A stretch of 64,000 nucleotides of DNA from Actinomycetospora endophytica. Lineage in GTDB: Bacteria; Actinomycetota; Actinomycetes; Mycobacteriales; Pseudonocardiaceae. A program made the position numbers and the translations under genes. Position 1 is the stretch's first letter. Each line of letters begins with the position of its first letter. The stretch covers positions 1,736,001 to 1,800,000 of the forward strand of contig NZ_JAJNDB010000001.1 in assembly GCF_021026375.1 (NCBI RefSeq). Reading direction: 5' to 3'. This document shows, one piece after another, positions 2,714 through 55,437 of the stretch. The notes beneath the pieces are model-generated. The model was not told the origin of the DNA. It did not search any database and saw only the letters and a program-made list of their open reading frames with translations.

Positions 2714-3907
2714 ATGACCGCACTCGGCGTCCCGAGGTCGATTCGTCCCCGGAGGCGTCACGGTCCCCGCGCCGTCGCCCCGGACCAGCCCACGCCGGCC
2801 CGGGAGCCGAACGCGCGCTCTCCGCGCGTCGTCGTGCTCACCGCGCGCGTCGGGGCGGGGCACGACCGGCCCGCCTACGAACTGGCCGCGCGCCTGCGCG
2901 CGCGGGGTGCCGTGGCCGAGGTGCACGACTACCTCGACGCGCTGCCCCGGTTCGGCCAGGTGATCATCGGCGACGGCTACGGCGTCGTGGTGAACAAGCT
3001 GCCGCGCTTCTTCGACTGGCTCTTCCACGCCCTCGAGCACCGGGGTCTCGTGCGCGGCATCATCCTGACGTTCCTGATGTGCTCCGAGCGCACGGTGCGC
3101 CGCTGGACCCGGGACGCGGACGTCGTGGTCTCCACGTTCCCGCTCTCGTGCCAGACGCTGGGGCGGATGCGGGCGGCGGGCCAGATCGCGGTGCCCGTCG
3201 TGAGCTACCTCACCGACCCGGCGCCGCACCGGATGTGGCTGCACCCGGGCGTCGACGTCCACCTGTCGGTGACGACCGCCTGCGCCGACGCCGCCGGCGA
3301 GGTCTACGGCGTCGCCGTGAGCCCGGCCGGCCCGCTGGTCGACCCGCGGTTCTCCCGCGCGCACACCGACGCCGACCGCACCGACACGCGGCGCTCCCTC
3401 GGCCTGACCGACGACGAGACCGCGGTGCTCATCAGCGCCGGCTCGCTCGGCCTGGGTGACGTGCCCGCGCTCGTGGACGCGGCGCTGACGAACCCGTCCG
3501 CGCACGTGCTGGTCCTCTGCGGCCGCAATTCCCTGCTGCGCGAGGACCTGGACGCCCGGGACCGGGTGACCGCGCTGGGCTGGCGCGACGACGTCCCGGC
3601 GCTCATGGCGGCCGCGGACGTGCTGCTGCACAACGCGGGCGGGCTCTCGGTGACCGAGGCGCTCGTCGCGAACCTCCCCGCCGTGACGTACCACCCGATC
3701 CCCGGGCACGGCCGCGCCAACGCGACGGTGCTCGCCGACGCCGGCCTCGCCCCGTGGCCGACGACACCGGAGGGGCTCGCCACGGTGCTCGACGGCATGG
3801 CGTACACCTCGCCGCTCTCGCCGTGGCCCGCGGCGCCCGACCGCGACGTGGCCGCGATCGTGCTCGAGCTCGCCGCCGAGGAGCATCAGGCGGTGCCGGC
3901 GGCGTAG
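2714..3907 (+). CDS. GT28 / MGDG-synthase-like glycosyltransferase, paralogue of the 1206-2432 gene
   Basis: 397 residues from ATG 2714, chosen because AGAGGAG lies 11 nt upstream; an in-frame start at 2657 has no such site. After a basic, Pro-rich 35-residue lead comes VVVLTARVGAGHDRPA (about 39-54), the GxGH loop, then ISAGSLGLGDV, VLCGRNS, ADVLLHNAGGLSVTEAL and HPIPGHGRAN, matching its divergent neighbour motif by motif. It should be a GT-B enzyme moving sugar from a nucleotide donor to a membrane lipid. The stop TAG is the first codon of a 76-bp palindrome shared with the katA end. Donor and acceptor unknown. Confidence 0.78.
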   Translation: MTALGVPRSIRPRRRHGPRAVAPDQPTPAREPNARSPRVVVLTARVGAGHDRPAYELAARLRARGAVAEVHDYLDALPRFGQVIIGDGYGVVVNKLPRFFDWLFHALEHRGLVRGIILTFLMCSERTVRRWTRDADVVVSTFPLSCQTLGRMRAAGQIAVPVVSYLTDPAPHRMWLHPGVDVHLSVTTACADAAGEVYGVAVSPAGPLVDPRFSRAHTDADRTDTRRSLGLTDDETAVLISAGSLGLGDVPALVDAALTNPSAHVLVLCGRNSLLREDLDARDRVTALGWRDDVPALMAAADVLLHNAGGLSVTEALVANLPAVTYHPIPGHGRANATVLADAGLAPWPTTPEGLATVLDGMAYTSPLSPWPAAPDRDVAAIVLELAAEEHQAVPAA

Positions 3908-3980
3908 GTGGCCTCCGGCCTCGTGAGCAGTAATTGATGCTCTGGCGTCAATTACTGCTCACGGGCGCGGAGCGCACCTA
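3905..3980. repeat. 76-bp palindromic element holding both convergent stop codons (copy 1)
   Basis: Inverted arms GTGAGCAGTAATTGA and TCAATTACTGCTCAC are separated by a short loop. The outermost bases TAG and CTA are the stop codons of the glycosyltransferase (plus) and of the lipoprotein (minus). A second copy of exactly the same length at 37434-37509 differs at only five positions, three of them in the loop. Its fold in either strand makes it a plausible bidirectional terminator. The AT-rich core is unusual for this genome. Confidence 0.85.
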
Positions 3981-5096
3981 TGCGGGCGGATCGGTGATCT
4001 GGATGACCCCGCCGGACACGCCCGCGATGTAGAGCCGGCCGGTCCGCTGGTCGACCCCGAGCGTGTACGGGTTCTGGACCGTCGGGACCCGCGCCACCTC
4101 CCGCGGCTGCGGGCTCGTCATGTCGTAGCCGATCACCTGGTTCGTGCCGGACGAGGCGACCCACACCCGGTCGCGCACCGCGTCGTAGGTGATCCCGTAC
4201 GGCCCGCCCGGCTGGGGCACCGCGCCGACCTGGGTGGGCGGCCCCGACTGGTTCGGCTGGAACACGAGCACCTGGTTGCCGCGGGTGTCGGTGGCGATCA
4301 TCCGGCCGTGGCGGTCGGCGACGAGGTGCGTCGGGCCGCCGCCGGCGGGGGCCTCGCCGACGATGTGCAGGGTGTCCACGTTGTAGGTGGTCAGCGTGTT
4401 CTTGCGCACGTCGATCATCCCGACGAGGTCCCCGACCGGCGCCACGCCCGCCGGCTGCACCGCGTCGGTGAAGACCTTGACGACCTGGTTCCCGCGCACG
4501 GCCGACACCGTCCCGCCGAGCTCGTCGGCGGTGATGACGGTGCCGTTCGGGTCCTGCGTGGCGTCGTGCGGCACCGAGCCGACGAACAGTGGCGGCGCCG
4601 CCTGCCCGCCCGGCAGCGTCACCCGCACCAGGGCGTTCGCGCTCTCCACCGGCACGAGCACCGGCCCGCCGGGGGCGGCGAGCTGGAGGTGGCGCACGAA
4701 GCCGGGGAGCGGGGTACGGGAGCGCACGGCACCGGTGTCGGCGTCGAGCAGCACCAGCTCGTTCGGGTTGCGCTTGGCGACCGCGACGGTGCGGGTCACC
4801 GGGTCGACGACCACGCCCTCCGGGGCCGACCCGACCTGGACCTGTCGGCCCGGCGGCGGGACGGTCGGGACCGGCGCGGACTGCGGCTCGGCGGCGAGCG
4901 GGAGCCCGGCGGTGTTCGGCCGCGTCCCCTCGGTGGGCACGCCCGGTGGGAGCAGGCCGGTCGTCGGGGCCGCGGCTCCCGCCGGGGTCGAGCTCGGTGG
5001 CGCGGCGGCGGGGGGTGGCTCGTTGCTGCAGGCGGTGAGCGCCAGTCCGGCGACCGCGAGGGCCGTCAGCAGGACGCGGGCTCGACGTCGAGGCAT
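3978..5096 (-). CDS. Secreted lipoprotein with YncE/NHL-type beta-propeller
   Basis: 372 residues from ATG 5094-5096; longer in-frame starts would bury the signal peptide. Residues 1-23 (MPRRRARVLLTALAVAGLALTAC) have a basic n-region, hydrophobic core and lipobox LTAC with Cys23 as lipidated residue. A Pro/Ala/Thr-rich linker follows to about residue 75. The rest is a set of repeated 40-45 residue blades (PVTRTVAVAKRNPNELVLLD, DAVRDRVWVASSGTNQVIGY, DQRTGRLYIAGVSGGV) typical of YncE-like propellers. Such proteins sit on the outer face of the membrane; some bind ligands, many have no known activity. The stop lies inside the 76-bp palindrome. Confidence 0.75.
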   Translation of the reverse strand: MPRRRARVLLTALAVAGLALTACSNEPPPAAAPPSSTPAGAAAPTTGLLPPGVPTEGTRPNTAGLPLAAEPQSAPVPTVPPPGRQVQVGSAPEGVVVDPVTRTVAVAKRNPNELVLLDADTGAVRSRTPLPGFVRHLQLAAPGGPVLVPVESANALVRVTLPGGQAAPPLFVGSVPHDATQDPNGTVITADELGGTVSAVRGNQVVKVFTDAVQPAGVAPVGDLVGMIDVRKNTLTTYNVDTLHIVGEAPAGGGPTHLVADRHGRMIATDTRGNQVLVFQPNQSGPPTQVGAVPQPGGPYGITYDAVRDRVWVASSGTNQVIGYDMTSPQPREVARVPTVQNPYTLGVDQRTGRLYIAGVSGGVIQITDPPA

Positions 5097-5431: not shown

Positions 5432-5659
5432 ATGGCCAAGACCACGCTCTCGGTCCCCGAGATCCACTGCGACCACTGCCGCGCCGCCATCGAGGGCGCG
5501 CTGTCCCCGATCGACGGCGTCGAGGGGGTCGACGTCGACCTCGAGGCGCGGGTCGTCCGCGTCGAGCACGACGACGAGCTGGCCCTCGGGTCCGTCGTCG
5601 AGGCGATCGAGGACCAGGGCTACGACGTGCCCGGACGCGACGCCTACATGCGCGCCTAG
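5432..5659 (+). CDS. Heavy-metal-associated domain protein, CopZ-like copper chaperone
   Basis: 75 residues, one full HMA domain. The metal site is IHCDHC, with Cys13 and Cys16 in a CxxC loop. The fold order beta-alpha-beta-beta-alpha-beta is visible through TTLSVPEIHC, RAAIEGALSPIDGVEGVDVDLEAR, VRVEHDD and VVEAIEDQGYDV. Such proteins carry Cu(I) to P-type ATPases. ATG 5432 has GGGAGG 5 nt upstream; an open frame extends to 5126 but lacks any domain. A CsoR-like box at 5242-5258 would fit copper control. No copper ATPase is adjacent. Its TAG stop overlaps the Ku stop on the other strand inside CCTAGG. Confidence 0.85.
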   Translation: MAKTTLSVPEIHCDHCRAAIEGALSPIDGVEGVDVDLEARVVRVEHDDELALGSVVEAIEDQGYDVPGRDAYMRA

Positions 5660-6726
5660 GCGGTCCGGCTGGCCTTCTCGTCCTTGCTCTCGTCGTCGGA
5701 GGTCTTCCGGCGCGACCGTGACGGGGACCCGGACTTCGTGCCGGACGACGAGCCCGACTTCTCCGACGAGCCCGTGCTCTTCGACGACGACGAGCTCTTC
5801 TTCCGCGTGGTCGAGCCCTTCGACCCGGACGAGGCGGCCTTCTCGGGCTCCTTCGCCGGTTCCTTCCCCGGCTCCGCCTTCTTCCCGGGCTCCGCCTTCT
5901 TCTCGGGCTCTTGCTTCTCCTCGGCCGGCGCGTCCGACCCGGACGCCGTGCCGCCCGCCGCCTCCACCGAGCGACGCAGCGCGGTGAGCAGGTCTGTCAT
6001 GTCGTCGGTGTCCTCGGCGACCGTCTCCTCGGGGGCCGGGCGCCCGCCGCCGTGCTCGCGCTTGTACTCGATGAGGTCGCCCACCGCCTTGCGGTAGTCG
6101 TCCTCGAACCCGTCGGCCTCGAAGTCCCCGGCGAGCGAGTCGATGAGCGAGGACGCCATCGCCATCTCCTGCGGGCGCAGGTCGACCTCGCCGTCGAGCA
6201 CGGGGAAGTCGGCGTCACGGACCTCGTCGGGCCACAGCATCGTCTGGAGCACGATCGCGTTCCCGCGCACCCGCAGGAGCGCCAGCGTCTCCCGCTGGCG
6301 CAGCGCCACCTTGACCAGCGCCATCCGGTCGGTCTCGCGCAGCGCCTCCCGCAGCAGCGAGTACGGCTTGAGCGCCTTGCTCTCCGGCTCCAGGTAGTAG
6401 CTCTTGTCGAGCAGCAGGGCGTCGACCTGGTCGGCCGGGACGAACTGCACGACGTCGATCTCGTGGCCGGTCGCGGTGGGCAGCGTCGCGAGGTCGTCGT
6501 CGTCCAGGATGATCAGCTGGCCGTCGTCGGTCTCGTAACCCTTCGCGATCTCGGAGTAGGCGACCTCCTCGCCACACACCGAGCAGACCCGCTTCTGGCG
6601 GATGCGGCCGCCGTCGACCTCGTGCACCTGATGGAAGCGGATGTCGTGGTTCGTCGTCGCGGCGTAGAGCCGTACGGGTACGTTGACCAGCCCGAACGAC
6701 ACCGCGCCGTTCCAGATCGCGCGCAT
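5656..6726 (-). CDS. ku: Non-homologous end-joining protein Ku
   Basis: 356 residues from ATG 6724-6726 (MRAIWNGAVSFGLVNVPVRLY, the classic Ku opening) with AGGGGAG upstream. Residues 1-255 form the Ku core, including the VCSVCGEEV segment (48-55), DLATLPTATGHEID and the EYKREHGG end of the core. Bacterial Ku is a homodimeric ring that binds double-strand ends and recruits LigD. The tail from about 265 is a long disordered Lys/Glu/Ser region with imperfect KKAEPG repeats and basic patches, as in actinomycete Ku proteins with DNA-binding extensions. No LigD polymerase or nuclease is nearby. Instead a ligase-like protein without catalytic lysine is divergently transcribed. Confidence 0.93.
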   Translation of the reverse strand: MRAIWNGAVSFGLVNVPVRLYAATTNHDIRFHQVHEVDGGRIRQKRVCSVCGEEVAYSEIAKGYETDDGQLIILDDDDLATLPTATGHEIDVVQFVPADQVDALLLDKSYYLEPESKALKPYSLLREALRETDRMALVKVALRQRETLALLRVRGNAIVLQTMLWPDEVRDADFPVLDGEVDLRPQEMAMASSLIDSLAGDFEADGFEDDYRKAVGDLIEYKREHGGGRPAPEETVAEDTDDMTDLLTALRRSVEAAGGTASGSDAPAEEKQEPEKKAEPGKKAEPGKEPAKEPEKAASSGSKGSTTRKKSSSSSKSTGSSEKSGSSSGTKSGSPSRSRRKTSDDESKDEKASRTA

Positions 6727-6897: not shown

Positions 6898-7767
6898 ATG
6901 CAGGATGTCGGCGTGCGCGGCGCCGGGGTCCGGCCCATGCAGCCGGTGCCCGGTCGCCTCCCGGTGGGTGAGGCGTGGAGCTACGAGGTCGACTGGAGCG
7001 GGATCCGCCTGCTCGCCGACGTCGACCAGGGGACGCTGCACCTGCGCACCCTCGACGGGGACGACGTGACGGCGCGGTTCCCGGAGTTCGCCCCGCTGGC
7101 CGAGGTCGTCGCCGACGGGCTGTTCGACGGCGAGGCGGTGCTGCTCGACGCGGGGCAGCCCTCGTCGCTGGCGCTGTTCGACCGGCTGCGCCGCGCCGAC
7201 CCCCGCAAGGCCCGCTCCCTCGCGCACGCCCGCCCGGCGATCTTCATGGTCTACGACGTGCTGCGGCTCTACGGCGTCCCGCTCACCGAGCGCCCGCTCG
7301 ACGAGCGCCGCGCCACCCTGGGGCGGCTCTCGCTCGACGAGGTCGGGCGCATCCAGGTCTCCCCGGTGTACGACGACGGCGCGGCGCTGCTCGCGGGGGT
7401 CCGCGAGCAGGGGCTGCCGGGCGTGATGGCCCGGCGTCGGGACACCCCGTACGACGCCGAGGCCGCTGACGACTGGGTCCGGGTGGTCGCCGGCGTGGAG
7501 GCGCTGCCCACCACGCCGACCGACGCCGTCCGGGACCTGCCCGCGCCGGCCGAGCCACCGCCCGCCGGACCGGCCCTGTCGGCGATCGCGCCGACGCTGC
7601 CGGGGATGGCCGTGCCGCCGGGCGAGGCGCCGTCGGACCCGTCACCGGCCGCGGCGTCGTCGGGCCCCGCCGCGGCCGCGTCGTCGTCCACCGGACCACG
7701 CTCGTCGTCGGGACCAGGCCGCGGCCGGCACAGCCGCGACGAGGAGGAGACCCTCGGGCTGTGGTGA
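6898..7767 (+). CDS. ATP-dependent DNA-ligase-like protein lacking catalytic lysine and OB domain
   Basis: 289 residues from ATG 6898; ATG 6937 is also possible, neither has a strong ribosome site. The order of motifs follows a LigD-type adenylation domain: RPMQPV (12-17), motif I position YEVDWSGIR (29-37), FDGEAVLLD (76-84), FMVYDVLRLYG (116-126), LPGVMARRRDTPY (173-185) and DDWVRVV (191-197). In active ligases motif I is E-x-K-x-D-G-x-R and motif IV/V carry further lysines. Here the lysine is Asp32, WDG is WSG, AKR is ARR and WLKVK is WVRVV, so AMP cannot be bound covalently. The OB domain is replaced by an 85-residue Pro/Ala/Ser tail. Its place opposite Ku suggests a non-catalytic DNA-end role. 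Confidence 0.7.
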   Translation: MQDVGVRGAGVRPMQPVPGRLPVGEAWSYEVDWSGIRLLADVDQGTLHLRTLDGDDVTARFPEFAPLAEVVADGLFDGEAVLLDAGQPSSLALFDRLRRADPRKARSLAHARPAIFMVYDVLRLYGVPLTERPLDERRATLGRLSLDEVGRIQVSPVYDDGAALLAGVREQGLPGVMARRRDTPYDAEAADDWVRVVAGVEALPTTPTDAVRDLPAPAEPPPAGPALSAIAPTLPGMAVPPGEAPSDPSPAAASSGPAAAASSSTGPRSSSGPGRGRHSRDEEETLGLW

Positions 7768-13383: not shown

Positions 13384-14565
13384 CTACGAGTTCGTCGCCG
13401 TCCGGGCGAAGTTCGGCGGGATGAGCAGGTCCTCCGGCGCGAGCTCCTGGACCGACTTCTTGCCCAGCCCGAGCAGCCCGGAGTCGAGGCCGCCGCGCAG
13501 GATGTCCAGGACGTTCCCGACGCCGACCTCGCCCGCCGCCGCGAGGCCCCACAGGTAGGCCCGGCCGACCGCGACCGCGTTCGCCCCCAGCGCCAGCGCC
13601 TTGACCACGTCCGAGCCGCGCCGGATGCCGCCGTCCATGATCACCTCGACGTCGCGCCCGACCGCCTCGACGATGCCCGGCAGGACCCGGATCGGGGCGG
13701 GCGTCGAGTCGAGGTTGTTGCCGCCGTGGTTGGAGACCTGGATCGCGGTGGCCCCGGCGTCCACGGCGCGCTTGGCGTCGTCGGCGCGGGTGATGCCCTT
13801 GACGCAGAACGGCGAGTCCGTGCCCCACTGCTCACGCAGCCACGCGACGTCGGCCCAGGTGGGCGGCGGGGTGAACATCCACTGGCCGTAGGCGCCGAAG
13901 AAGGTCGGGGGGACGGACCCGTCGACCGGGATGTTCGGCACCGTCAGGTCGGGGATCTTGCCGCTGCGCAGGAACTCGATGCCCCACTTCGGCCGCGAGA
14001 CGCCCTCGGGGATGTACTTGAGGATCGTCTTCCAGTCCATCTTCTCGGGGATGGACGGGCTGCCCCAGTCGCGCCCGTGCGAGAACGACCAGTCGAGCGT
14101 GACGATCAGACCCTTGGCCCCGGCGCGCTTGGCGCGCTCGGCGCGGGCGGCGAGGGTGTCCCGGTCGCCGACCCAGTACATCTGGAAGAACGTCTTGTCG
14201 TTGACCGCGCAGACGTCCTCGATCGACCGGCTCGCGAACGACGACAGGCCCATCGCGGTCCCGCGCGACGCCGCGGCGCGGGCCACGGCCACCTCGCCCT
14301 CGGGATTGACGGCCTGCACCCCGGTCGGCGAGATCATGATGGGCATGGAGATCTCCTGGCCCATGATCGTCGTCGCCAGGGAGCGCTCCGCCGGGAGATC
14401 CGCGACGTGCGGGGCGAAGCCCAGCTCACGGAAGGCGCCCGTGTTGTCGTCGAGGGTCACCCCGGCCTCGCTGCCGGCCACCAGCGCGCCGTACACCGAC
14501 TTCGGCAGCCGCTTGCGCGCGCGGCGCTGCGCCTCCGCCACCGACTCGAACCACTGACCTGCCAT
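13384..14565 (-). CDS. FMN-dependent alpha-hydroxy-acid dehydrogenase, MftD (pre-mycofactocin synthase)-like
   Basis: 393 residues from ATG 14563-14565 with AAAGGGG about 15 nt upstream. It is a lactate-dehydrogenase/glycolate-oxidase type TIM barrel: SPTGVQAVNPEGEVAVARAA (FMN region), TLDWSFSHGRDWGSPSIPEK, VKGITRADDAKRAVDAGA, SNHGGNNLDSTPAPIR with the active-site His, and IMDGGIRRGSDVVKALALGA. The opening WFESVAEAQRRARKRLPKSV and the FTPPPTWADVAWLREQW segment look closer to MftD of the mycofactocin pathway than to LldD. MftD converts AHDP to pre-mycofactocin. The other mft genes are not beside it, so it may be an isolated pathway copy or a paralogue with another hydroxy acid substrate. Confidence 0.75.
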   Translation of the reverse strand: MAGQWFESVAEAQRRARKRLPKSVYGALVAGSEAGVTLDDNTGAFRELGFAPHVADLPAERSLATTIMGQEISMPIMISPTGVQAVNPEGEVAVARAAASRGTAMGLSSFASRSIEDVCAVNDKTFFQMYWVGDRDTLAARAERAKRAGAKGLIVTLDWSFSHGRDWGSPSIPEKMDWKTILKYIPEGVSRPKWGIEFLRSGKIPDLTVPNIPVDGSVPPTFFGAYGQWMFTPPPTWADVAWLREQWGTDSPFCVKGITRADDAKRAVDAGATAIQVSNHGGNNLDSTPAPIRVLPGIVEAVGRDVEVIMDGGIRRGSDVVKALALGANAVAVGRAYLWGLAAAGEVGVGNVLDILRGGLDSGLLGLGKKSVQELAPEDLLIPPNFARTATNS

Positions 14566-14833
14566 GAGAGCGCTCCGCCCCTTTCCTCGTCCGGATCTCC
14601 GGGTCGACCGGATCGTCCTCTCCACGCGCGGGAACGCGCTCGGTGACCCGTCCCGACGGAGCCTAGATGGCGGCGGTCACCGGGGGACCCGCGTGAGCGG
14701 GCGGCCCGGTCCCCTCCGGGCGGAGGGGGCCCGCACCTTCGCCCGATCGACCGAACCGCGGTGGGGCCGGACGCCGAACCCCTGCACGTCTCCGGCGTGA
14801 CCTACCGCGGCCGGGGAGAGGAGACCGCAGACC

Positions 14834-15529
14834 ATGCACCCGTCCAGCCCCCCGGGGCCCCCGCTCACGGGGCCCGCCCCCGCCGTCCCGGTCGGAGCCG
14901 ACCGGTCGGCTCCGGCGGGCTCGCCCGCGGGTCCGGACGCCGACGTCACCGACGCCGAACTGGTCTCGCGGCTCGTCGAGCGCGACACCTCCGCCCTCGA
15001 CGTCCTCTACACCCGCCACGGCCGCGCCGCCTACTCGCTCGCCCGCCGCATCTGCGCGGACGAGAGCCTGGCGGAGGACGTCGTGCAGGAGGTCTTCCTC
15101 GTCCTGTGGCGCGACCCGGCCCGCTTCGACCGCACCCGCGGCACCGTCGTGAGCTGGCTGCTGACCCTGGTGCACCACAAGGCGGTCGACGCCGTCCGGC
15201 GCGAGGCCACCCGCCGTCGCCACCACGTCCCGACCGAGGAGCCCGACGACGGCGGTACCGCCACCGGGCCGTCGGCGGACCGCGCGGCCCTCGGGTCGGT
15301 CATCGCCGAGCACGTCCGGGCCGCCCTGCGCCACCTGCCGAACGAGCAGCGCCAGGCGCTCGGGCTCGCCTACTACGGCGGCTACACCCAGCGTGAGGTC
15401 GCCTCGATGACGGGCGTCCCCATCGGGACGGTGAAGTCGCGGATGTTCACCGGTGTCGCGAAGCTGCGGGTGCTGCTGGCCCCCGTCCTCGGCACCTCCG
15501 GCCTCGACCTGCTCGGGGACACCTGGTGA
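14834..15529 (+). CDS. ECF-type RNA polymerase sigma factor (SigK/SigL-like)
   Basis: 231 residues from ATG 14834 with GAGAGGAG upstream. After a 40-residue Pro-rich lead, region 2 shows ELVSRLVERDTSALDVLYTRH and CADESLAEDVVQEVFLVLW, the DNA-melting and -10 contact helices. Region 4 shows LRHLPNEQRQALGLAYYGGY and TQREVASMTGVPIGTVKSRM for -35 contact. No region 3 is present. The stop overlaps the anti-sigma start (GTGA), the usual arrangement for a sigma factor held by its membrane anti-sigma. The paired RskA-like protein suggests the SigK/SigL group. I see no sure autoregulatory promoter in the gap upstream (14566-14833). Confidence 0.88.
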   Translation: MHPSSPPGPPLTGPAPAVPVGADRSAPAGSPAGPDADVTDAELVSRLVERDTSALDVLYTRHGRAAYSLARRICADESLAEDVVQEVFLVLWRDPARFDRTRGTVVSWLLTLVHHKAVDAVRREATRRRHHVPTEEPDDGGTATGPSADRAALGSVIAEHVRAALRHLPNEQRQALGLAYYGGYTQREVASMTGVPIGTVKSRMFTGVAKLRVLLAPVLGTSGLDLLGDTW

Positions 15530-16404
15530 GCGCCGGCCACGAGAACGGACAGGACCCGGAGCTCGCCGAGGGCGTCGTCGGGCGTGCCCTGCACGCGCTC
15601 GAGCCCGACGAGGAGGACCGCGTCGCCGAGCACCTGCGCGAGTGCGCGGCCTGCCGGGCGCTGCTCTCCGAGACCCACGAGACGATGGCCGCCCTGGCGC
15701 ACGCGGTCCCCGTCGTCGAGCCGTCGGCGGCGCTGCGGGAGCGCATCCTCGCGGCGGCCGCGGCCGAGCCGGACCCGCCCCGTCCGGCCCCCGCGCGCGA
15801 GCGGACCACGCGGGAACTGCCGGCGGTGACCCCGTCCGGCGCCGAACCGACCCCGGGCACGACGACGGGCCCGCTGCCCGTCCCGCTCCCGCGTCGGCGG
15901 GTCGCGGCGATCCTGGCGCTCGCCGCGGTCATCGCGGGCATCGTGGTCTTCGCCGCGCGGGGCGCGGCGGGCCCGGACCCGACCGACCCGCGCACGGCCG
16001 TGGCGCAGCGTGCCCAGCAGGTGGTCGCGAGCGCCCAGGCCCGCGACCCCGCGGTGCGCTCCGCGTCCCTGATCCAGCGGGGCAACGGCAACGTCGCCGC
16101 GGTGGTGCTCGACGACGGCTCGGGCCCGCGCGTCGTCCCGCTGGACCTCCCGGCGATCGGCAGCGGGCGCACGTTCGTGCTCTGGCGGGTCGCCGGGGTC
16201 AGCGCGACCCCGGTCGGGACGGTCGATCCCACCGGCGGGTCGTTCACCCCGACGGCGGGCTCGACGCCGGGCGCGACCGGCGCGCCGGGGTCCGACGGCA
16301 ACCCCCTGACGCTGCAGCAACGCGCCTACGCGCTGTCGGCCGAACCGGTCGGGCCGGTGCCCACGCGACCGACCGCGATCGTCGCGAGCGGCCCGCTGGT
16401 CTGA
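15526..16404 (+). CDS. RskA-family membrane anti-sigma factor
   Basis: 292 residues. The cytoplasmic zinc anti-sigma domain has H36-x3-C40-x2-C43 (HLRECAACR) following an acidic helix. A Pro-rich linker leads to one membrane span at about 126-144 (VAAILALAAVIAGIVVFAA). The outer part contains the RskA pattern DDGSGPRVVPLDLP, RTFVLWRVAG and a Gly/Thr-rich loop. It would hold the sigma factor encoded just before it, with which it overlaps by 4 bases, and release it on regulated proteolysis. It is followed by 294 bases without a gene before the kinase fusion. Confidence 0.88.
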   Translation: MSAGHENGQDPELAEGVVGRALHALEPDEEDRVAEHLRECAACRALLSETHETMAALAHAVPVVEPSAALRERILAAAAAEPDPPRPAPARERTTRELPAVTPSGAEPTPGTTTGPLPVPLPRRRVAAILALAAVIAGIVVFAARGAAGPDPTDPRTAVAQRAQQVVASAQARDPAVRSASLIQRGNGNVAAVVLDDGSGPRVVPLDLPAIGSGRTFVLWRVAGVSATPVGTVDPTGGSFTPTAGSTPGATGAPGSDGNPLTLQQRAYALSAEPVGPVPTRPTAIVASGPLV

Positions 16405-16595
16405 TCGGGCGAGAGCCCGGGGCGGTCCGGGGGCGACTGGCGGCCATCGGTCGTCCGGCGGCGTCCTATCGGCTGTGGGCAGGCACCCGACGCGGCAGGA
16501 TGGCGGGTCAGCCGCTCGTCGCGTCGTGGCGGTGTCCGGCCGCAGCACCGCCGTGGCGCGGCGCGGAACTCACGGACGCCGTCGGGGGGTCTGGC

Positions 16596-16601
16596 TACCG
16601 T
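16596..16601 (+). promoter_or_regulatory. Candidate -10 box for the ligase/kinase fusion gene
   Basis: TACCGT would start RNA near 16608. That start lies beyond the GTG at 16600 that opens the same frame, so ATG 16699 is favoured. GGAACT at 16564-16569 is a possible upstream element. The rest of 16405-16698 shows nothing else I recognise. Confidence 0.35.
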
Positions 16602-16698
16602 GTCGCTCGTCGGGTGGGACGCGGCGCTCCGACCGCCGCGGAGCACCCGCCGCGCCGGAACGGGCCGGTGCGGGCCGACGAGCAGGGGAGGCGCCGCG

Positions 16699-18516
16699 AT
16701 GGGGACCTCACCGCTGCGCGGCCCGTCCGCGGCCCCCGGGGCGCGGGAGACCGTCGCCCGCGTGCCCGGCCCCCGCGGCCGGGCCCGTCCGATGCTCGCC
16801 TCGCCCGGGGAGCTGCCCCGCGGGGCGGGCTGGGCGTTCGAGTTCGTCTGGTCCGGGCTGCGCTGCCTCGGGCACGCCGGCGGCGGTGAGCTGCGCCTGC
16901 TCGACGCCGACGGGCACGACGTCACGGCCGGTTTCCCGGAGCTCGGCGCGCCCGCCGCCCCGGGGCTGGTCCTCGACGGCGTGGTGGTCGCGCTCGACGC
17001 GGTCGGGCGCCCCAGCCCATCGCGGCTGCGACGCCGGAGCAAGGTGCGCGCGCCGTCCCGGGGGCTGGTCGAGACCACGCCGGTGTCGTTCTACGTGTTC
17101 GACGTGCTGGAGGTCGGCGGGCGCTCCACCGCCCGCATGAGCTACCGGGAGCGCCGCGAGCTGCTCGCGGAGATCGATCTCGCGGGCGGCCGGGTGGTCG
17201 TCCCGCCGTCGTTCACCGGCGTGGACGCCGAGCAGGTCGTGCGCACCGCGCGCCACTACGGGCTCGAGGGGGTCGTGGCGAAGCGCGTGGAGTCGACCTA
17301 CCAGGGCGGGCGGCGCTCGAGGAGCTGGATCTCCTCGGTGGTCACCCGCCCGCAGGACGTCGTCGTCGGCGGCTGGCTGCCCCCGCGCGGCGGCGGGGCC
17401 GGGATCGGCTCGCTGCTGCTCGGCGTCCCCAGCGAGGGCACGCTGCGCTACGTCGGCCGCGTCAGCACCGGGGTCACCGCGGGCGCCCGCCGGGAGATGT
17501 TCGAGGCGGCGCAGGGGCTCACGTGCCCGGTCAGCCCCTTCGACGACCCGCTGCCCGCCGACGTCGACGCCGCGGCGCACTGGCTGACCCCGCGCCTCGT
17601 CGGGCACGTCGAGCACCGGCGGTGGACCCCGACCGGCCTGCTCGGCCGTCCCGTGTGGCGGGGGCTGCGGGCCGGGACGCACCCCGCGACGGTGCAGGCG
17701 CCGGTCCTGGCCGCACCGGTCGTCGCGACGGATCTCGCGCTCGACGATCTCGCGACCGTCGACGGCCCGCGCCTGCGCCGGCCGGGGCACTCCCGCGGCA
17801 TGACGGGGTCGGGGGGCGCGTCGGACGTCGGGGGCACGACGCCGGCCCGGACGCCGCCGACGCTGGAGGTGGCGCTGCCCGACGCCGAGGTCGAGGCCGC
17901 GCTGCGCTCCCGGTTCTCCGCGCACTTCGTGCACAACGCCCTGACCGCGATCGCGGCCTACGTGCGGCTCGACCCGTCCCGGGCCCGGGAGCTGCTCACC
18001 GAGTTCGCCGATTTCACGCGCTACTCGTTCCGCGACGGCGAGGCCGGCACCACCGTGGCGGAGGAGCTCCGCAACGCGCGGCGCTACCTGACGCTCGAGC
18101 AGGCCCGGTTCGGCCCGCGGCTGGGCGTCGAGGTGACGATCGCCCCCGACGTCGAGAAGGTCGTGCTGCCGCCGTTCGTGGTGGCGCCCCTGGTGGAGAA
18201 CGCGGTGCGGCACGGCATCGAGCCGAAGCCGGAGGGCGGCACGGTGCACGTGACCGCGTCGGGTGCCGGGGCGGACTGCCTGGTGACGGTGTCCGACGAC
18301 GGCGCGGGCATGGGTCCGGAGGCCTTTCGCGCGGCCTCGCAGGTCGACGCCCGTCACGGCGGCATCGCCGAGGTCAGCCGCCGGCTGCAGGCCGCCTTCG
18401 GCAGCAGCTGCGACCTGCACGTCGACTCCCGGCCGGGCAGCGGGACCACCGTACGGCTGCGGGTCCCGGCGCGTGATCGCGAGCAGGTACCCACGGAGCA
18501 GTTGCTGGTCGGCTGA
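16699..18516 (+). CDS. Fusion of inactive ATP-dependent DNA-ligase domains with a LytS-type histidine kinase
   Basis: 605 residues from ATG 16699, AGGGGAGG 7 nt upstream. Residues 30-270 follow a LigD ligase: RPMLAS (30-35), FEFVWSGLR (47-55) at motif I, VLDGVVVALD (91-100), FYVFDVLEVGG (131-141), LEGVVAKRVESTY (189-201), SWISSVVTRPQDVVVGGW (209-226) and an OB fold with GSLLLGVPSEGTLRYVGRVS (238-257). The nucleotide-binding Lys of motif I is Val50, WDG is WSG, DGE is DGV, and WLKVK is WISSV, so it cannot ligate. After a linker (about 325-395) comes a LytS/YehU-type kinase: RSRFSAHFVHNALTAI with His409, PLVENAVRHGIEPK (497-510) and DDGAGMG (533-539), with no membrane span. This predicts a soluble kinase with a DNA-binding input domain. 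No LytTR regulator is adjacent. Confidence 0.85.
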   Translation: MGTSPLRGPSAAPGARETVARVPGPRGRARPMLASPGELPRGAGWAFEFVWSGLRCLGHAGGGELRLLDADGHDVTAGFPELGAPAAPGLVLDGVVVALDAVGRPSPSRLRRRSKVRAPSRGLVETTPVSFYVFDVLEVGGRSTARMSYRERRELLAEIDLAGGRVVVPPSFTGVDAEQVVRTARHYGLEGVVAKRVESTYQGGRRSRSWISSVVTRPQDVVVGGWLPPRGGGAGIGSLLLGVPSEGTLRYVGRVSTGVTAGARREMFEAAQGLTCPVSPFDDPLPADVDAAAHWLTPRLVGHVEHRRWTPTGLLGRPVWRGLRAGTHPATVQAPVLAAPVVATDLALDDLATVDGPRLRRPGHSRGMTGSGGASDVGGTTPARTPPTLEVALPDAEVEAALRSRFSAHFVHNALTAIAAYVRLDPSRARELLTEFADFTRYSFRDGEAGTTVAEELRNARRYLTLEQARFGPRLGVEVTIAPDVEKVVLPPFVVAPLVENAVRHGIEPKPEGGTVHVTASGAGADCLVTVSDDGAGMGPEAFRAASQVDARHGGIAEVSRRLQAAFGSSCDLHVDSRPGSGTTVRLRVPARDREQVPTEQLLVG

Positions 18517-18525
18517 CCCGGAGCG

Positions 18526-18553
18526 CCCCCGGCCCCGTGGGTGGAGCCGGGGG
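18526..18553. terminator. Hairpin between convergent genes
   Basis: CCCCCGGC (18526-18533) pairs with GCCGGGGG (18546-18553) in the 51-bp gap between the kinase fusion and the secreted protein. It may end transcription from both sides. Confidence 0.5.
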
Positions 18554-18567
18554 ACGCCGCCGAGGGG

Positions 18568-18858
18568 TCAGTCGTCGGAGTTGGTGTCCGACTGGGCGCA
18601 GCTCGCGTGGTCCGAGTTCCCGCCGAGGATCCCGGAGAGGATCGGTACCTGGGTCCCGCAGGCCTGCACGGGGAGAACGGTCGAGTGGTTGAGGACGCCG
18701 ACGTCGCCGTCGTCGTCGTTCCAGTCGTGGTGCTTCGTGCTGGTGTGGGCCGACGCCATCGGCGCGACGGCCGTCAGAGCGGCCGCGGAGAGCGCGAGGG
18801 CTGCGACGGGCGTGGCGGCGCGACGGCCGAGCCGGCGCGGGGCGCGGTGCTTGGACAC
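18568..18858 (-). CDS. Small secreted chaplin-like protein
   Basis: 96 residues from GTG 18856-18858, with GGGAGGA 6 nt upstream, which decides the start. Residues 1-38 are a signal peptide: basic KHRAPRRLGRR, core PVAALALSAAALTAVAPM, cleavage after ASA. The mature part of about 58 residues has a His/Asp-rich start (HDWNDDDGD) and then VGVLNHSTVLPVQACGTQVP and ILGGNSDHASCAQ. The two Cys flanking hydrophobic VPV/VPI strands resemble chaplins, the amyloid coat proteins of aerial hyphae, though no exact chaplin domain is certain. It could equally be an unnamed small secreted actinomycete family. It stands alone and faces the kinase gene. Confidence 0.5.
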   Translation of the reverse strand: MSKHRAPRRLGRRAATPVAALALSAAALTAVAPMASAHTSTKHHDWNDDDGDVGVLNHSTVLPVQACGTQVPILSGILGGNSDHASCAQSDTNSDD

Positions 18859-19115
18859 GGAGTTCCTCCCAGGTGATCGGACCGATCGGTTCGACCGTTC
18901 GTCGCAGGTAACGTACGGCGAACGGCTGCGCGGAGCCTGCGCTGCGGGTGACGGGTGGGGCCACTGGGACGGCGGATGACGCCCGGAAAGCGTGGTACGG
19001 CTCGCGTGTCGCCCCGTGGGCGAGTACAACCCGCTGAGCGGTCATCCTGATACGACGAATGGTCTAATGTGTTGATGCTGTCGCGGGCCGGTCTCGGAGG
19101 GGTGACGATGGCCCG

Positions 19116-19904
19116 GTGCGCGTGCTCGCCGTCGACTGGTCCGGGGACGCCCGTGGGGCGCGGCACCGGATCCGGGTGGCCGAGGCGCGCCCGGGCGAGC
19201 TGCTCGAGGTGCGCCTCGGCCTCGACCGGGAGGGGGTCGGCGACCTGCTGCTCGGCCTGCGCGCGGGAACCGAGCCCGCCGTCGTCGGGATGGACTTCTC
19301 GTTCGGTCTCGCGTCGTGGTTCGCCCGCGAGCACGGCTGCGCGACCCTGCCGCAGATGTGGGACCTGGCCGCCCGCGACGGCGAGCGCTGGCTGCGCGCG
19401 TGCCCGCCGCCGTTCTGGGGGCGGGCGGGGACCCGGAAGCCGACGGGGGACCCGGCGCGCCCGCTGTACCGGTCGACCGAACAGGACGTGCGGGCGCGCG
19501 GACTGAACCCGCTCTCGACGTTCCAGATCGGCGGGGCCGGGGCGGTCGGCACCGGCTCGGTGCGGGGGATGGCGCTGCTCGCGGCGTGGCGGGCCGCGGG
19601 CGTCGGGGTGTGGCCGCTGGACCCGGCGCCAGGGAGCTCCGGAGTGCTGCTCGTCGAGGTCTACCCGCGCGCGATGACCGGGCCGGTGGTGAAGTCGTCG
19701 CCGGACGCGCGCCGGGCCCACGTCGTCGCCGACCCCCGCATCCCGACCGCGCTGCGCGACGCCGCGGCCGCCACCGAGGACGCCTTCGACGCCGCGCTCG
19801 CCGCCCTGGGGATGGCCGAGCACGTCGACGAGCTGGCGGGGCTGGGACCGCTGCGCGATCCCACGTACCTGCTGGAGGGCGCGATATGGGCTCCGCCCAT
19901 GTGA
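19116..19904 (+). CDS. DUF429-like protein, predicted RNase H-fold nuclease
   Basis: 262 residues from GTG 19116, GGAGGGG 11 nt upstream. The opening VRVLAVDWSGDARGA puts an Asp in the first strand, and VVGMDFSFGLASWF gives a second Asp, the acidic pattern of the RNase H-like fold in DUF429 proteins. Further parts are FWGRAGTRKP, NPLSTFQIGGAGAVGTGSVRGM and VEVYPRAMTGPVVK. No function has been shown for the family as far as I know. The gene ends ATG TGA inside a palindrome that also holds the stop of the convergent oxidoreductase. Confidence 0.6.
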   Translation: MRVLAVDWSGDARGARHRIRVAEARPGELLEVRLGLDREGVGDLLLGLRAGTEPAVVGMDFSFGLASWFAREHGCATLPQMWDLAARDGERWLRACPPPFWGRAGTRKPTGDPARPLYRSTEQDVRARGLNPLSTFQIGGAGAVGTGSVRGMALLAAWRAAGVGVWPLDPAPGSSGVLLVEVYPRAMTGPVVKSSPDARRAHVVADPRIPTALRDAAAATEDAFDAALAALGMAEHVDELAGLGPLRDPTYLLEGAIWAPPM

Positions 19905-27336: not shown

Positions 27337-29142
27337 CTACCCCAGGACCCGGCCGAGGAAGTCGATCGCGCGCGGGTAGGCATCGAGCCGGTTGACCCGC
27401 TTCGCCAGGCCGTGGCCCTCGTCGTCGTAGACCACCAGCTCGACCTCCACCCCGCCCGCACGCACGGCGTCCGCGACCTGCACTGCCTCGGAGAGCGGCA
27501 CCCGCGGGTCGTTCGCGCCGTGGATGACGAACAGCGGCGCGCGGACGTCGGAGATCCGGTTCAGCGGCGAGGCCCGCTCCAGGAACTCGCGGTTGCGCTC
27601 GAGCGAGCCGTACTCCCGCTCCCGGTGGGCGCGCCGGTACGGCGAGGTGTTCTCCAGGAACGTCACCAGCGACGAGATGCCGACGATGTCCACGCCGGCG
27701 GCCCAGCGCTCGGGCTGGAACGCGACCCCGGCCAGCACCATGTAGCCGCCGTACGACCCGCCCCAGAGCGCCGAGCGCGCCGGGTCCAGGCCGAGCTGCG
27801 GCAGGTAGTCGTGGATCGCGGCGAGGTCCGCGACCGAGTCCAGCCGGAGCTCGACGTCGTCGAGCGAGTACCAGCGCTTGCCGTAGCCGACGGACCCGCG
27901 CACGTTCGGCACCAGCACGGTGTGCCCCTGCGCGGTCAGCGCCTGCACGATCGGGGAGAACGAGCGCACCGACTGCCCCTCGGGTCCGCCGTGCACGATC
28001 AGCACGCTGGACCCCGAGGGCTGCTCAGGGGCGTAGACGAAGCACGGCACCGTCTCGCCGTCCGGGGTCGGGACGCCGACGCTGGTCGGGGTGACCAGCT
28101 CGAGGCCCTCGAGGTCGTCGACCGACGACGCCGCGGTGCCGGTGCGCCCGCTGGCGGCGTCGACGAGCACGACGTCGGCGGGGATCGTCGGGGACGTCCA
28201 GGTCAGCGCGAGGCCCTGCGAGTCGGCCGACCAGCGCGGCACGGTGAGGAAGTCGCCGACCCCGACGCCGGGGGTGACGACGTCGACGCGGTGTGCGCCG
28301 GTGGTCACGTCGTGGATCGCGAGCCGGGACGCGCCGTCGTCGTCGGTGACGACGAGCAGGCTCGCGCCGTCGGGGGAGAGGCGCCCGGAGACGTCGTGGG
28401 CGTCGTCGGTGACGAGGTAGGTCACCGTGCCGGTGGCCGGGTCGAGGCGGGCGATCCCGGTGCGGTCGCGCCCGGAGTTCGTGGTGACGATCGCGGCGGA
28501 GGAGTCCGGGAGCCACTGGAGACCACCGAAGAGCGCGGGCTCGTCGGCGGCGGTGATCTCGCGGGTCTCGGCGCCGGCGAGCAGGAGCACCTGCGAGCTC
28601 ATGGCGGGCGTTCCGGGGCGGGTCATGAGCGCGCCGGATCCGTCGGGCGCGACCGCCGCGCCGCCGACCATGCCGCCGCCGTCGTAGAGGACGGTCTCGG
28701 TGGTGGCCTCGACGTCGCGCAGCACCAGGTCGAAGTCGACGCCGTTGCGGCGGTTGGTCGCGTAGACGACCCGCCCGCCGTCGAGGACCTCGGCGAGCGA
28801 GTGGATGTGGGCCGGGTCGCGCACGAGCGGCTCGAGTCCGTCCTCGCCGACCGGGTCGGTCACCTCGTCGGGGCGCAGCAGCGAGAGCTGGGCGCGCTCG
28901 TCGCCCGCGGAGTCGTGCGAGACGACGACGGTGCGCGGGGAGATCCCCTTGAGGTACCGGCCGGAGCACGCGCCCGGGAGCGCGGTGAGGGTGCGCCGCC
29001 CGCCGTCCGGGGTGAGCTCGACGAGCTGCACCGAGCCGGAGGTGTCGTCGCCGGCGAGGACGCGGCCGTCCGCGTCGACGTCGAACGCTCGCCAGGTGCG
29101 GGCGGAGAGCAGGCGGTGGACGAGGTCGGCGGTGTCGCTCAC
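27337..29142 (-). CDS. S9-family prolyl oligopeptidase-like serine peptidase
   Basis: 601 residues from GTG 29140-29142; a start nine codons earlier is possible. Residues 1-340 form a beta-propeller with repeated LSPDGASLLVVTDDDG-type blades. The alpha/beta-hydrolase follows: SVLIVHGGPEGQSVRSFSP (oxyanion), NVRGSVGYGKRWY, catalytic Ser in ALWGGSYGGYMVLAG, Asp in VIHGANDPRVPLSEAVQ and His in VYDDEGHGLAKRVNR. Cytoplasmic acylaminoacyl- or dipeptidyl-peptidase-like enzyme acting on short peptides. It is inserted, reversed, between dnaX and ybaB, which are close neighbours in many actinobacteria. Confidence 0.88.
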   Translation of the reverse strand: MSDTADLVHRLLSARTWRAFDVDADGRVLAGDDTSGSVQLVELTPDGGRRTLTALPGACSGRYLKGISPRTVVVSHDSAGDERAQLSLLRPDEVTDPVGEDGLEPLVRDPAHIHSLAEVLDGGRVVYATNRRNGVDFDLVLRDVEATTETVLYDGGGMVGGAAVAPDGSGALMTRPGTPAMSSQVLLLAGAETREITAADEPALFGGLQWLPDSSAAIVTTNSGRDRTGIARLDPATGTVTYLVTDDAHDVSGRLSPDGASLLVVTDDDGASRLAIHDVTTGAHRVDVVTPGVGVGDFLTVPRWSADSQGLALTWTSPTIPADVVLVDAASGRTGTAASSVDDLEGLELVTPTSVGVPTPDGETVPCFVYAPEQPSGSSVLIVHGGPEGQSVRSFSPIVQALTAQGHTVLVPNVRGSVGYGKRWYSLDDVELRLDSVADLAAIHDYLPQLGLDPARSALWGGSYGGYMVLAGVAFQPERWAAGVDIVGISSLVTFLENTSPYRRAHREREYGSLERNREFLERASPLNRISDVRAPLFVIHGANDPRVPLSEAVQVADAVRAGGVEVELVVYDDEGHGLAKRVNRLDAYPRAIDFLGRVLG

Positions 29143-38451: not shown

Positions 38452-38499
38452 ATGTCAGTGACTGACATGACCGTACGCCTTCATGTCAGTCGCTGTCAT
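38452..38499. promoter_or_regulatory. Two TetR operator palindromes between epimerase and tetR
   Basis: ATGTCAGT-G-ACTGACAT (38452-38468) is perfect. A second, weaker site ATGTCAGTCGCTGTCAT (38483-38499) lies 31 bp further. The -10 box TAGGCT of the tetR follows at 38503-38508. Confidence 0.75.
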
Positions 38500-54420: not shown

Positions 54421-55437
54421 GTGCGTGCAGTACAGGTGCCGAAGGCCGGAGCGGACTTCGAGCTGGTCGAGCGGGACCTCCCCGTGCCCGGCGAGGGCGA
54501 GGTGCGGGTGACGGTGCAGGCCTGCGGGGTCTGTCACTCGGACATGTTCGCCAAGGAGGGCGTGATGGGGGACGCGACGCCGTTCCCGATCATCCCCGGC
54601 CACGAGGTCGTCGGCCTCGTGGACGCGGTCGGCCCGGGTGTCACCGCGGAGTTCTCGCCCGGTGACCGCGTGGGCGTCGGCTGGTTCGGCGGCGCCTGCT
54701 ACCACTGCGAGTCCTGCCGCCGGGGCGACTTCATCACCTGCGCGAACGGGCGCATCCCCGGCGTGACGTTCGACGGCGGGTACGCCGACGCCCTCGTCGT
54801 GCCCGCCGACGCGCTGGCGCGGATCCCGGCCGAGCTGTCCGCGGAGGACGCGGCGCCGCTGCTCTGCGCCGGCGTGACGACCTTCCACGCGCTGCGCTCC
54901 AGCCCGGCCCGCCCCGGGGACCGGGTGGCCGTGCTCGGCGTCGGCGGCCTGGGCCACCTGGCGATCCAGTTCGCCGCGCGCATGGGCTGCGAGGTCGTGG
55001 CGATCTCCCGCGGCACCGACAAGGCCGACCTGGCCAAGCAGCTCGGCGCCCACCACCACATCGACTCGCAGGCGACCGACCCGGGCGCGGCGCTGGCCGA
55101 GCTGGGCGGGGCCACGACGATCCTCGCGACCGCCACGAACGGCGAGGCGATCTCCGCGCTCGTCCCGGGGCTCGCGCCGCGCGGCCAGCTCGTCGTCCTC
55201 GGCGCCGCGGAGACCCCGCTGACGCTGGACGCGATGTCGCTGATCGGGCCCGCGACCGACGTGGCGGGCCACCCCTCGGGCACGTCGAAGGACTCAGAGG
55301 ACACCCTGAACTTCTCCCGGATCACCGGCGTGCGCCCGATGATCGAGACGATGCCGTTGGAGAAGGCGGCCGAGGCCTACGACAAGATGATGGCCAACGA
55401 CGCCCGCTTCCGGATGGTCCTCACCACCGGGAACTGA
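54421..55437 (+). CDS. Zinc-dependent alcohol dehydrogenase
   Basis: 338 residues from GTG 54421, GAGAGGTGGAG 7 nt upstream. MDR family: ACGVCHSDMFAKEG with catalytic-zinc Cys, PIIPGHEVVG with zinc His-Glu, GGACYHCESCRRGDFITC with the four structural-zinc Cys, and VAVLGVGGLGHLAIQFAARMGCEVVAIS for NAD(P). The loop GWFGGACYHC and late DTLNFSRITGVRPMIETMPL are as in NADP-linked cinnamyl-alcohol-type or propanol-preferring dehydrogenases. It stands alone, convergent with the GH18-like gene with 9 bp between stops. Confidence 0.9.
   Translation: MRAVQVPKAGADFELVERDLPVPGEGEVRVTVQACGVCHSDMFAKEGVMGDATPFPIIPGHEVVGLVDAVGPGVTAEFSPGDRVGVGWFGGACYHCESCRRGDFITCANGRIPGVTFDGGYADALVVPADALARIPAELSAEDAAPLLCAGVTTFHALRSSPARPGDRVAVLGVGGLGHLAIQFAARMGCEVVAISRGTDKADLAKQLGAHHHIDSQATDPGAALAELGGATTILATATNGEAISALVPGLAPRGQLVVLGAAETPLTLDAMSLIGPATDVAGHPSGTSKDSEDTLNFSRITGVRPMIETMPLEKAAEAYDKMMANDARFRMVLTTGN

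Follow-up and report, generated by a model that had tools for sequence, protein, structure and literature searches.

A conserved fusion of a LigD-type ligase, lacking catalytic residues, with a LytS-type histidine kinase shows gene linkage to Ku in three genera of Pseudonocardiaceae

Bacterial end joining is described, in the available text of PMC1378119, as a two-protein repair machine composed of Ku and a ligase, and according to the same text the genes for bacterial Ku often share operons with those of LigD-type ligases. The Ku contact of LigD that was described first is its polymerase domain but, besides this domain, Ku and the Ku core also bind the LigD ligase domain directly (PMC9638933, in its accessible part); binding between the ligase domain and Ku is likewise reported in the accessible part of PMC13201618. 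Within this ligase domain, adenine, ribose and gamma-phosphate are contacted by Glu479, Lys618, Arg486 and Arg629, phosphates are held by Arg501, Lys635 and Lys637, and Glu613 binds metal. The mutations E613A and K637A each abolish nick sealing on their own, while a Lys481-to-Met mutant holds ATP in crystal 6nhz (all as given in the available text of PMC8656161). Among the matches listed in a search of open papers in PubMed Central, none named a ligase-histidine kinase fusion in its title or the start of its abstract, and no report of a signalling arm of bacterial end joining was among those listed.

Here we describe such a fusion from Actinomycetospora endophytica, lying in a window (the whole stretch of 64,000 nucleotides that was analysed), together with its relatives. 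The original prediction had read the gene as one uninterrupted frame in which a LigD-type adenylation plus OB module is followed by a LytS-type kinase with His409, VENAVRHG and DDGAGMG. This architecture is borne out: the reading frame is unbroken up to a TGA stop codon (18514-18516), a ribosome-binding-site-like GGGGAGG (16685-16691) precedes it, the kinase motifs are as described, and four Pfam domains follow each other in the 605 aa product, all of them above the curated cut-offs (Table 1). A sequence search of the PDB matched residues 30-332 to the LigD ligase domain (1vs0/6nhz, E ~1e-52) and residues 404-590 to the histidine kinase 6swj (E 3e-20), and a family profile retrieved the same two matches more strongly (3e-87 for the ligase, 3e-29 for the kinase). 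The ligase fold is assigned from these sequence matches to solved structures. A structure model, which had been proposed as a check, drew on 16 close sequences; with a mean pLDDT of 52.8 (mostly below 70 in the ligase half, mostly above 60 and in parts up to 87 in the kinase part) it was too poor to serve as evidence. In agreement with the prediction, no membrane span is convincingly present in the protein: hydropathy averaged over 19 residues peaks at 1.60 (residues 84-102), within the ligase fold. Upstream of the gene, a -10-like element and the stretch before it are kept in 14 Actinomycetospora sequences; the upstream stretch CCGTTCGTCGCG is not commoner than chance in the window (49 occurrences, 52 expected), and positions 14000-19500 gave no Rfam match.

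Table 1. Coordinates of the fused gene, its parts and other features in the window
Feature	Position	Strand	Basis or remark
Fused gene, LigD-type ligase (predicted dead) + LytS-type histidine kinase	16699..18516	+	single frame, 605 aa
Adenylation (nucleotidyltransferase) domain, residues 42-211	16822..17331	+	Pfam PF01068, DNA_ligase_A_M (E 3.3e-18); PDB 1vs0
Codon of Val50, position of LigD nucleophile Lys481	16846..16848	+	alignment to 1vs0
OB domain, residues 234-325	17398..17673	+	Pfam PF04679, DNA_ligase_A_C (E 5.7e-17)
Linker, residues 326-400, middle part fast evolving	17674..17898	+	between Pfam matches
DHp (dimerisation + phospho-acceptor) domain, residues 401-475	17899..18123	+	Pfam PF06580, His_kinase (E 2e-15)
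Codon of His409, presumed phospho-acceptor	17923..17925	+	invariant in 22/22
HATPase_c ATP-binding kinase domain, residues 494-592	18178..18474	+	Pfam PF02518 (E 1.8e-11)
TACCGT, putative -10-like element upstream of fused gene	16596..16601	+	MAFFT alignment, 14 upstream regions
Ku gene, sole Ku match in genome; linked, not adjacent	5656..6726	-	Pfam PF02735 (E 7e-50)
Second ligase (predicted dead), adenylation domain only (EVDWSG motif I), divergent from Ku	6898..7767	+	
DNA-damage promoter pattern matches	6002-6024, 28340-28362, 38452-38474	+	two mismatches
DNA-damage promoter pattern match	55000-55022	-	two mismatches

Residues were mapped onto LigD through the alignment to 1vs0, and 22 fused proteins were compared. 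None of the 22 has a lysine at the position of the nucleophile Lys481 or at those of Lys635 and Lys637 (eight carry arginine at Lys635), nor an arginine at Arg501 or a glutamate at Glu530 of the DGE motif. The predicted loss of ligase lysines in the window protein is thereby confirmed, with Val50 in motif I and Ser212 and Val214 in motif V. The nucleophile lysine is found in all 18 other aligned ligases and is missing from four ligases encoded beside Ku. The loss at Lys637 was given no weight, because many relatives that retain the nucleophile are likewise without this lysine. The positions of Glu479, Arg486, Lys618 and Arg629 are invariant in all 22 fused proteins, and that of Glu613 varies (E 5, D 9, H 3, S 3, R 1, P 1; glutamate in the window protein). 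Judged by these residues, the ligase half is predicted to have kept its fold and to be catalytically dead. An empty nucleotide pocket does not follow from the missing lysine alone, given that all four positions contacting ATP are unchanged.

Counting substitutions in related pairs by the Nei-Gojobori method, we found that the adenylation domain is under purifying selection: its dN/dS is 0.05-0.17 in six pairs with intact kinases and 0.10-0.14 in three pairs of the group in genus g30 whose kinase has decayed (see below). The linker (residues 340-395) gave 0.12-0.74 in five Actinomycetospora pairs. Ligases that do bear the lysine are present in the same organisms, with KLDG or KFDG motifs in 7/7 Actinomycetospora genomes and KWDG in 2/2 genomes of genus g14. 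One further ligase of the genome studied here (KYDG, WLKLK; L145, G000:C2:112000-120000, ~3100-4200) appears split between two frames, seemingly by a frameshift or by a fault in the assembly.

In the kinase half, His409 and the asparagine of HFxxN are invariant in all 22 fused proteins, and the window protein has an intact N-box and G-boxes. The N-box asparagine separates two sets of proteins: 14 of the 15 proteins aligned from outside the decayed g30 group have it, and all seven within the group lack it. Of the 49 g30 genomes with a match spanning both halves, 46 have matches that stop at positions 493-525 of the 550-position family profile and only three reach position 545. The ATP-binding domain has a dN/dS of 0.02-0.27 in Actinomycetospora (five pairs), while in the decayed g30 group (three pairs) its remnant shows 0.21-0.51 and the DHp domain, the most constrained part of these proteins, 0.02-0.08. 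The end of the kinase domain is also missing from L113, a Ku-adjacent copy of genus g45. The histidine domain thus seems to have been kept for some role even in the decayed g30 group, where use of ATP is unlikely. The window protein has its kinase motifs intact, but the originally predicted role of sensor kinase cannot extend to every member, because the ATP-binding domain has decayed in most g30 genomes.

A single-sequence search of 18 Actinomycetospora genomes recovered the fusion in 17, including one copy cut by a contig end; the remaining genome (83% complete) gave no match. With a profile built from the 22 chosen fused proteins, 90 of 390 family genomes matched at E up to 1e-122, and a match spanning ligase and kinase, defined as one reaching position 490 or beyond of 550, was obtained in at least 78 of them, distributed over 4 of 46 genera (Actinomycetospora 17, g14 10, g45 2, g30 49). 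The 12 other genomes comprise eight of g7, in which the match stops near the end of the ligase half, and four of g30, in which it stops at 338-362. The figure of 78 is probably a lower bound, because one genome outside the cut (G294) carries the kinase histidine region in frame. A stop codon lies within the matched stretch in 4 of the 78 (G195, G297, G322, G323), and gene calls at these four loci give single frames of 524-537 aa with ligase and histidine domain. It had been considered that homologues might always be two genes, joined here by a frameshift; this does not agree with a spanning match in at least 78/390 genomes. Together with the selection on both halves, the same breadth rules out a frameshift or annotation artefact, and likewise a pseudogene.

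Outside the family, profile searches that scored the best three candidates per genome returned nothing that convincingly spanned both halves, either in the order (397 genomes, E up to 1e-70, among the matches listed) or in the phylum (396 genomes, E up to 1e-118); several matches from the order extend beyond the ligase half, one as far as position 411 of 550. In maximum likelihood trees, the ligase halves of 23 fusions cluster together, apart from 21 other ligase-type sequences (100/99). Their kinase halves are set off by a single branch (100/99) from eight stand-alone LytS-type kinases, a small comparison set from one genus whose rows are mostly identical. Both results would fit a single fusion event.

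To compare the surroundings of the gene, a simple codon-position method was used to call genes on the window, 15 loci and 33 genome stretches (49 sequences in all), and the products were clustered. Ku and a second ligase without the nucleophile lysine lie about 10 kb upstream of the fused gene in the same window; neither had been noted in the original prediction, and the Ku linkage of a ligase-kinase fusion is new here. L035, L048, L138 and L139 encode the same Ku-side ligase, and at the g45 locus L113 a related one (EVRWTG) adjoins Ku. Of the 49 genomes searched for Ku itself, 48 have it, so that its place is informative and its presence is not. In Actinomycetospora it lies 8.5-15.3 kb from the fusion in all 15 genomes that have both on one contig (two genomes with the genes on different contigs and one in which the fusion was not found are excluded). 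In g14 it stands directly upstream of the fused gene on the same strand in 10/10 genomes; gene calls show this for nine, and the Ku search shows it for the tenth, where the locus falls at a contig end. The gaps in the nine loci are 21-205 bases as called, and in five of seven junctions read the Ku stop is 6-22 bases from an in-frame fusion start; the junction of L111 measures about 85 bases, and in L125 the fusion start is ambiguous. Two near-identical inverted-repeat units (CCGCAGTCTG...) lie between Ku and the fused gene at L111:8041-8130 and are absent from the other six g14 junctions read. Two of the three g45 copies adjoin Ku in convergent orientation, at distances of 8 and 68 bases; the third (L122) showed no Ku in the 18 kb that were read. 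None of 17 g30 loci has Ku within the stretch read.

The fused protein is thus tied to Ku by gene linkage in three genera. Although these counts come from related genomes, represent few events and are not independent, the persistence of linkage in three different arrangements suggests more than inherited gene order, and it gives DNA breaks a better grounding as the input than the original prediction had. Given that the LigD ligase domain binds Ku, a dead ligase domain encoded next to Ku may be a Ku-docking module, by analogy with LigD, and the fused kinase may report the docking.

Other neighbours are less widely shared. The original prediction had placed the gene behind an ECF sigma/anti-sigma pair; Pfam confirms the sigma gene, but the anti-sigma match lies below the cut-off (RskA_C 24.0 bits against 29.4). 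Among the loci read, both gene clusters of this pair adjoin the fusion in Actinomycetospora only, and other sigma-like genes, recognised by eye, are found a few genes away in some g30 loci. A gene for a DUF3516 helicase (Pfam scan of one) is divergent from the fusion in 15/17 g30 loci, and genes that by eye resemble RecQ, HelD and topoisomerase IB lie near it in some of them (L107-L137). On the minus strand, positions 18568-18852 of the window encode a small protein without a Pfam match, whose start resembles a signal peptide by eye; its gene adjoins the fusion in several of the Actinomycetospora loci (clusters 20 and 34). A promoter pattern associated with DNA damage, TTGTCRGTG-N8-TANNNT, occurs four times in the window when two mismatches are allowed, more than the expected mean of 0.84, and one of 100 shuffles reached four; none of the matches in the window is at the fused gene, and one lies inside the Ku gene.

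The absence of a LytTR regulator beside the fused gene, as originally predicted, holds. The genome has two LytTR matches, both elsewhere, and two His_kinase (PF06580) matches, namely the fusion and a stand-alone LytS-type kinase. By Pfam, one LytTR match belongs to a response regulator of receiver-LytTR type (L134:13104-13964), encoded about 5 kb away from the LytS kinase (L134, G000:C9:1567000-1585000), and the other (C9:415039) has no receiver by eye. No regulator was seen by eye beside the fused gene in the gene lists of 11 loci, nor any LytTR match within 100 kb of it on the same contig in 44 genomes (by eye; many contigs are short). A single LytTR match is found in 9 of 15 Actinomycetospora genomes and 8 of 10 g14 genomes, and in all nine such Actinomycetospora genomes it lies 4.4-5.2 kb from the LytS relative. 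The fusion is 54% identical to the LytS-type kinase of its own genome over residues 396-591, with 7/16 identical residues in the histidine helix and 19/21 in residues 425-445 after it. Because this latter segment is nearly identical, and because no regulator stands beside the fusion and this is the only receiver-LytTR gene found in the genome, it is a fair guess that the receiver-LytTR protein near LytS is the likeliest regulator of the fused kinase. Genes resembling sodium-solute symporters (by eye) lie just downstream of the LytS kinase and its presumed LytTR regulator.

The reading that we put forward, with confidence a little short of even, is that the fusion is a cytoplasmic sensor kinase whose input is the docking of its dead LigD-type ligase on Ku-bound DNA ends. 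We infer the following course of events. Ku would clamp a double-strand end, and the ligase domain would dock on Ku, perhaps also on the end, as a real ligase domain does, without being able to react. Two copies on one end, or on a synapsed pair of ends, would alter the packing of the DHp dimer, whereupon the kinase would phosphorylate, or stop dephosphorylating, a LytTR-type response regulator. Ku docking, the sensing of DNA ends and kinase activity are each predicted, and the regulator would be the candidate named above. The linkage to Ku in three arrangements, the binding of the LigD ligase domain to Ku, the loss of catalytic residues from a ligase fold that is kept, the constraint on the adenylation domain (0.05-0.17), the kinase motifs, the similarity to LytS and the place of the single LytTR match near the LytS relative in nine Actinomycetospora genomes all argue for this course. 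Against it stand the g30 group, L122 and L113, since kinase competence and Ku linkage are not shared by all members, the absence from the fused protein of the polymerase domain, the lack of an adjacent regulator and the low identity of the histidine helix to that of LytS (7/16).

The main rival, which is unlikely but serious, assigns the protein a structural role in end joining: the DHp domain would dimerise, and two dead ligases would bridge Ku-bound ends or hold them for a real ligase, signalling being lost or secondary. Accessory scaffold proteins of eukaryotic end joining offer an analogy. The main g30 group, in which the DHp domain is kept (0.02-0.08) while the ATP-binding domain has decayed (0.21-0.51) and the dead adenylation domain is still constrained (0.10-0.14), would suit such a factor, as would the linkage to Ku in three genera and the lysine-bearing ligases in the 7/7 Actinomycetospora and 2/2 g14 genomes read. 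A mere dimeriser, however, has no need of the ATP-binding domain that Actinomycetospora retains (0.02-0.27, with N-box and G-boxes intact), and the group in which only DHp survives is also the group without Ku in the stretches read. Decidedly less probable is a role as a nucleotide sensor, in which the dead pocket would bind ATP, ADP, AMP or a relative without reacting and report this to the kinase, the proximity of Ku being incidental. The invariance (22/22) of Glu479, Lys618, Arg486 and Arg629 alongside the loss of the transfer residues fits such a sensor, and Lys481-to-Met LigD does hold ATP (6nhz; available text of PMC8656161). Yet the phosphate-holding Arg501, Lys635 and Lys637 are replaced (Lys635 by arginine in 8/22), the metal-binding Glu613 position varies, and the repeated linkage to Ku is left unexplained.

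Least probable, by a slight difference, is that the protein acts as a brake, either through competition of the dead ligase with real ligases for Ku or through titration of the LytS kinase or its regulator by the kinase half. The second, unfused dead ligase divergent from Ku in the window, with related ones in five other loci read, the closeness to LytS after the histidine helix and the retention of DHp in members with decayed kinases speak for such a brake. A simple competitor would not need a kinase domain, though, and ATP-binding motifs are kept in 14/15 aligned members outside the decayed g30 group. Returning to the Ku-recruited sensor kinase, the occurrence of the fused gene near Ku in several genera suggests that bacteria have a means of converting broken DNA into a signal. 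If the coupling to Ku is true, the whole system would be of a new kind. The conserved, Ku-linked fusion makes signalling from Ku-bound DNA ends directly testable in bacteria, and its intact and decayed kinases, with the histidine kept in both, provide a natural series in which to study how a sensor kinase may turn into a scaffold.

Compared with the LigD ligase domain (1vs0, 6nhz), the fusion shares adenylation and OB domains over residues 30-332 as well as a linkage to Ku that is typical of LigD (PMC1378119, in its available text). It differs in that the nucleophile lysine, the motif Ia arginine, the DGE glutamate and the motif V lysine are replaced and in that a kinase stands in place of polymerase or nuclease domains, and it scores below the NCBIfam cut-offs for LigD-type ligases (TIGR02779, PRK09632). 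With LytS-type kinases (PF06580 + HATPase_c) it has in common the DHp domain with HFxxN, the N-box and the G-boxes, but its sensor is the dead ligase and no LytTR regulator lies next door; in the LytS relative, by comparison, one segment looks membrane-like by eye, and a GAF match falls short of the Pfam cut-off. The missing partner is compatible with the LytS-type class, as many kinases have distant partners, and by its domains the fusion would be a LytS-type kinase with a kind of sensor unrecorded in the literature searched. The g14 order of Ku followed by a ligase-type protein, operon-like, recalls the Ku-LigD end-joining module, from which the fusion departs in that its ligase is, by its residues, without catalytic function and carries a kinase. 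DNA-PK of animals is a Ku-recruited kinase with serine/threonine chemistry and no ligase domain. Its kinase fold is unrelated to that of the fusion, and the likeness, by analogy only, is that a kinase is expected at DNA ends through Ku. It is possible, and we suggest it tentatively, that a Ku-recruited kinase in these bacteria turns a double-strand end into a two-component signal, forming a functional counterpart of DNA-PK that in one genus has decayed to a histidine-bearing scaffold.
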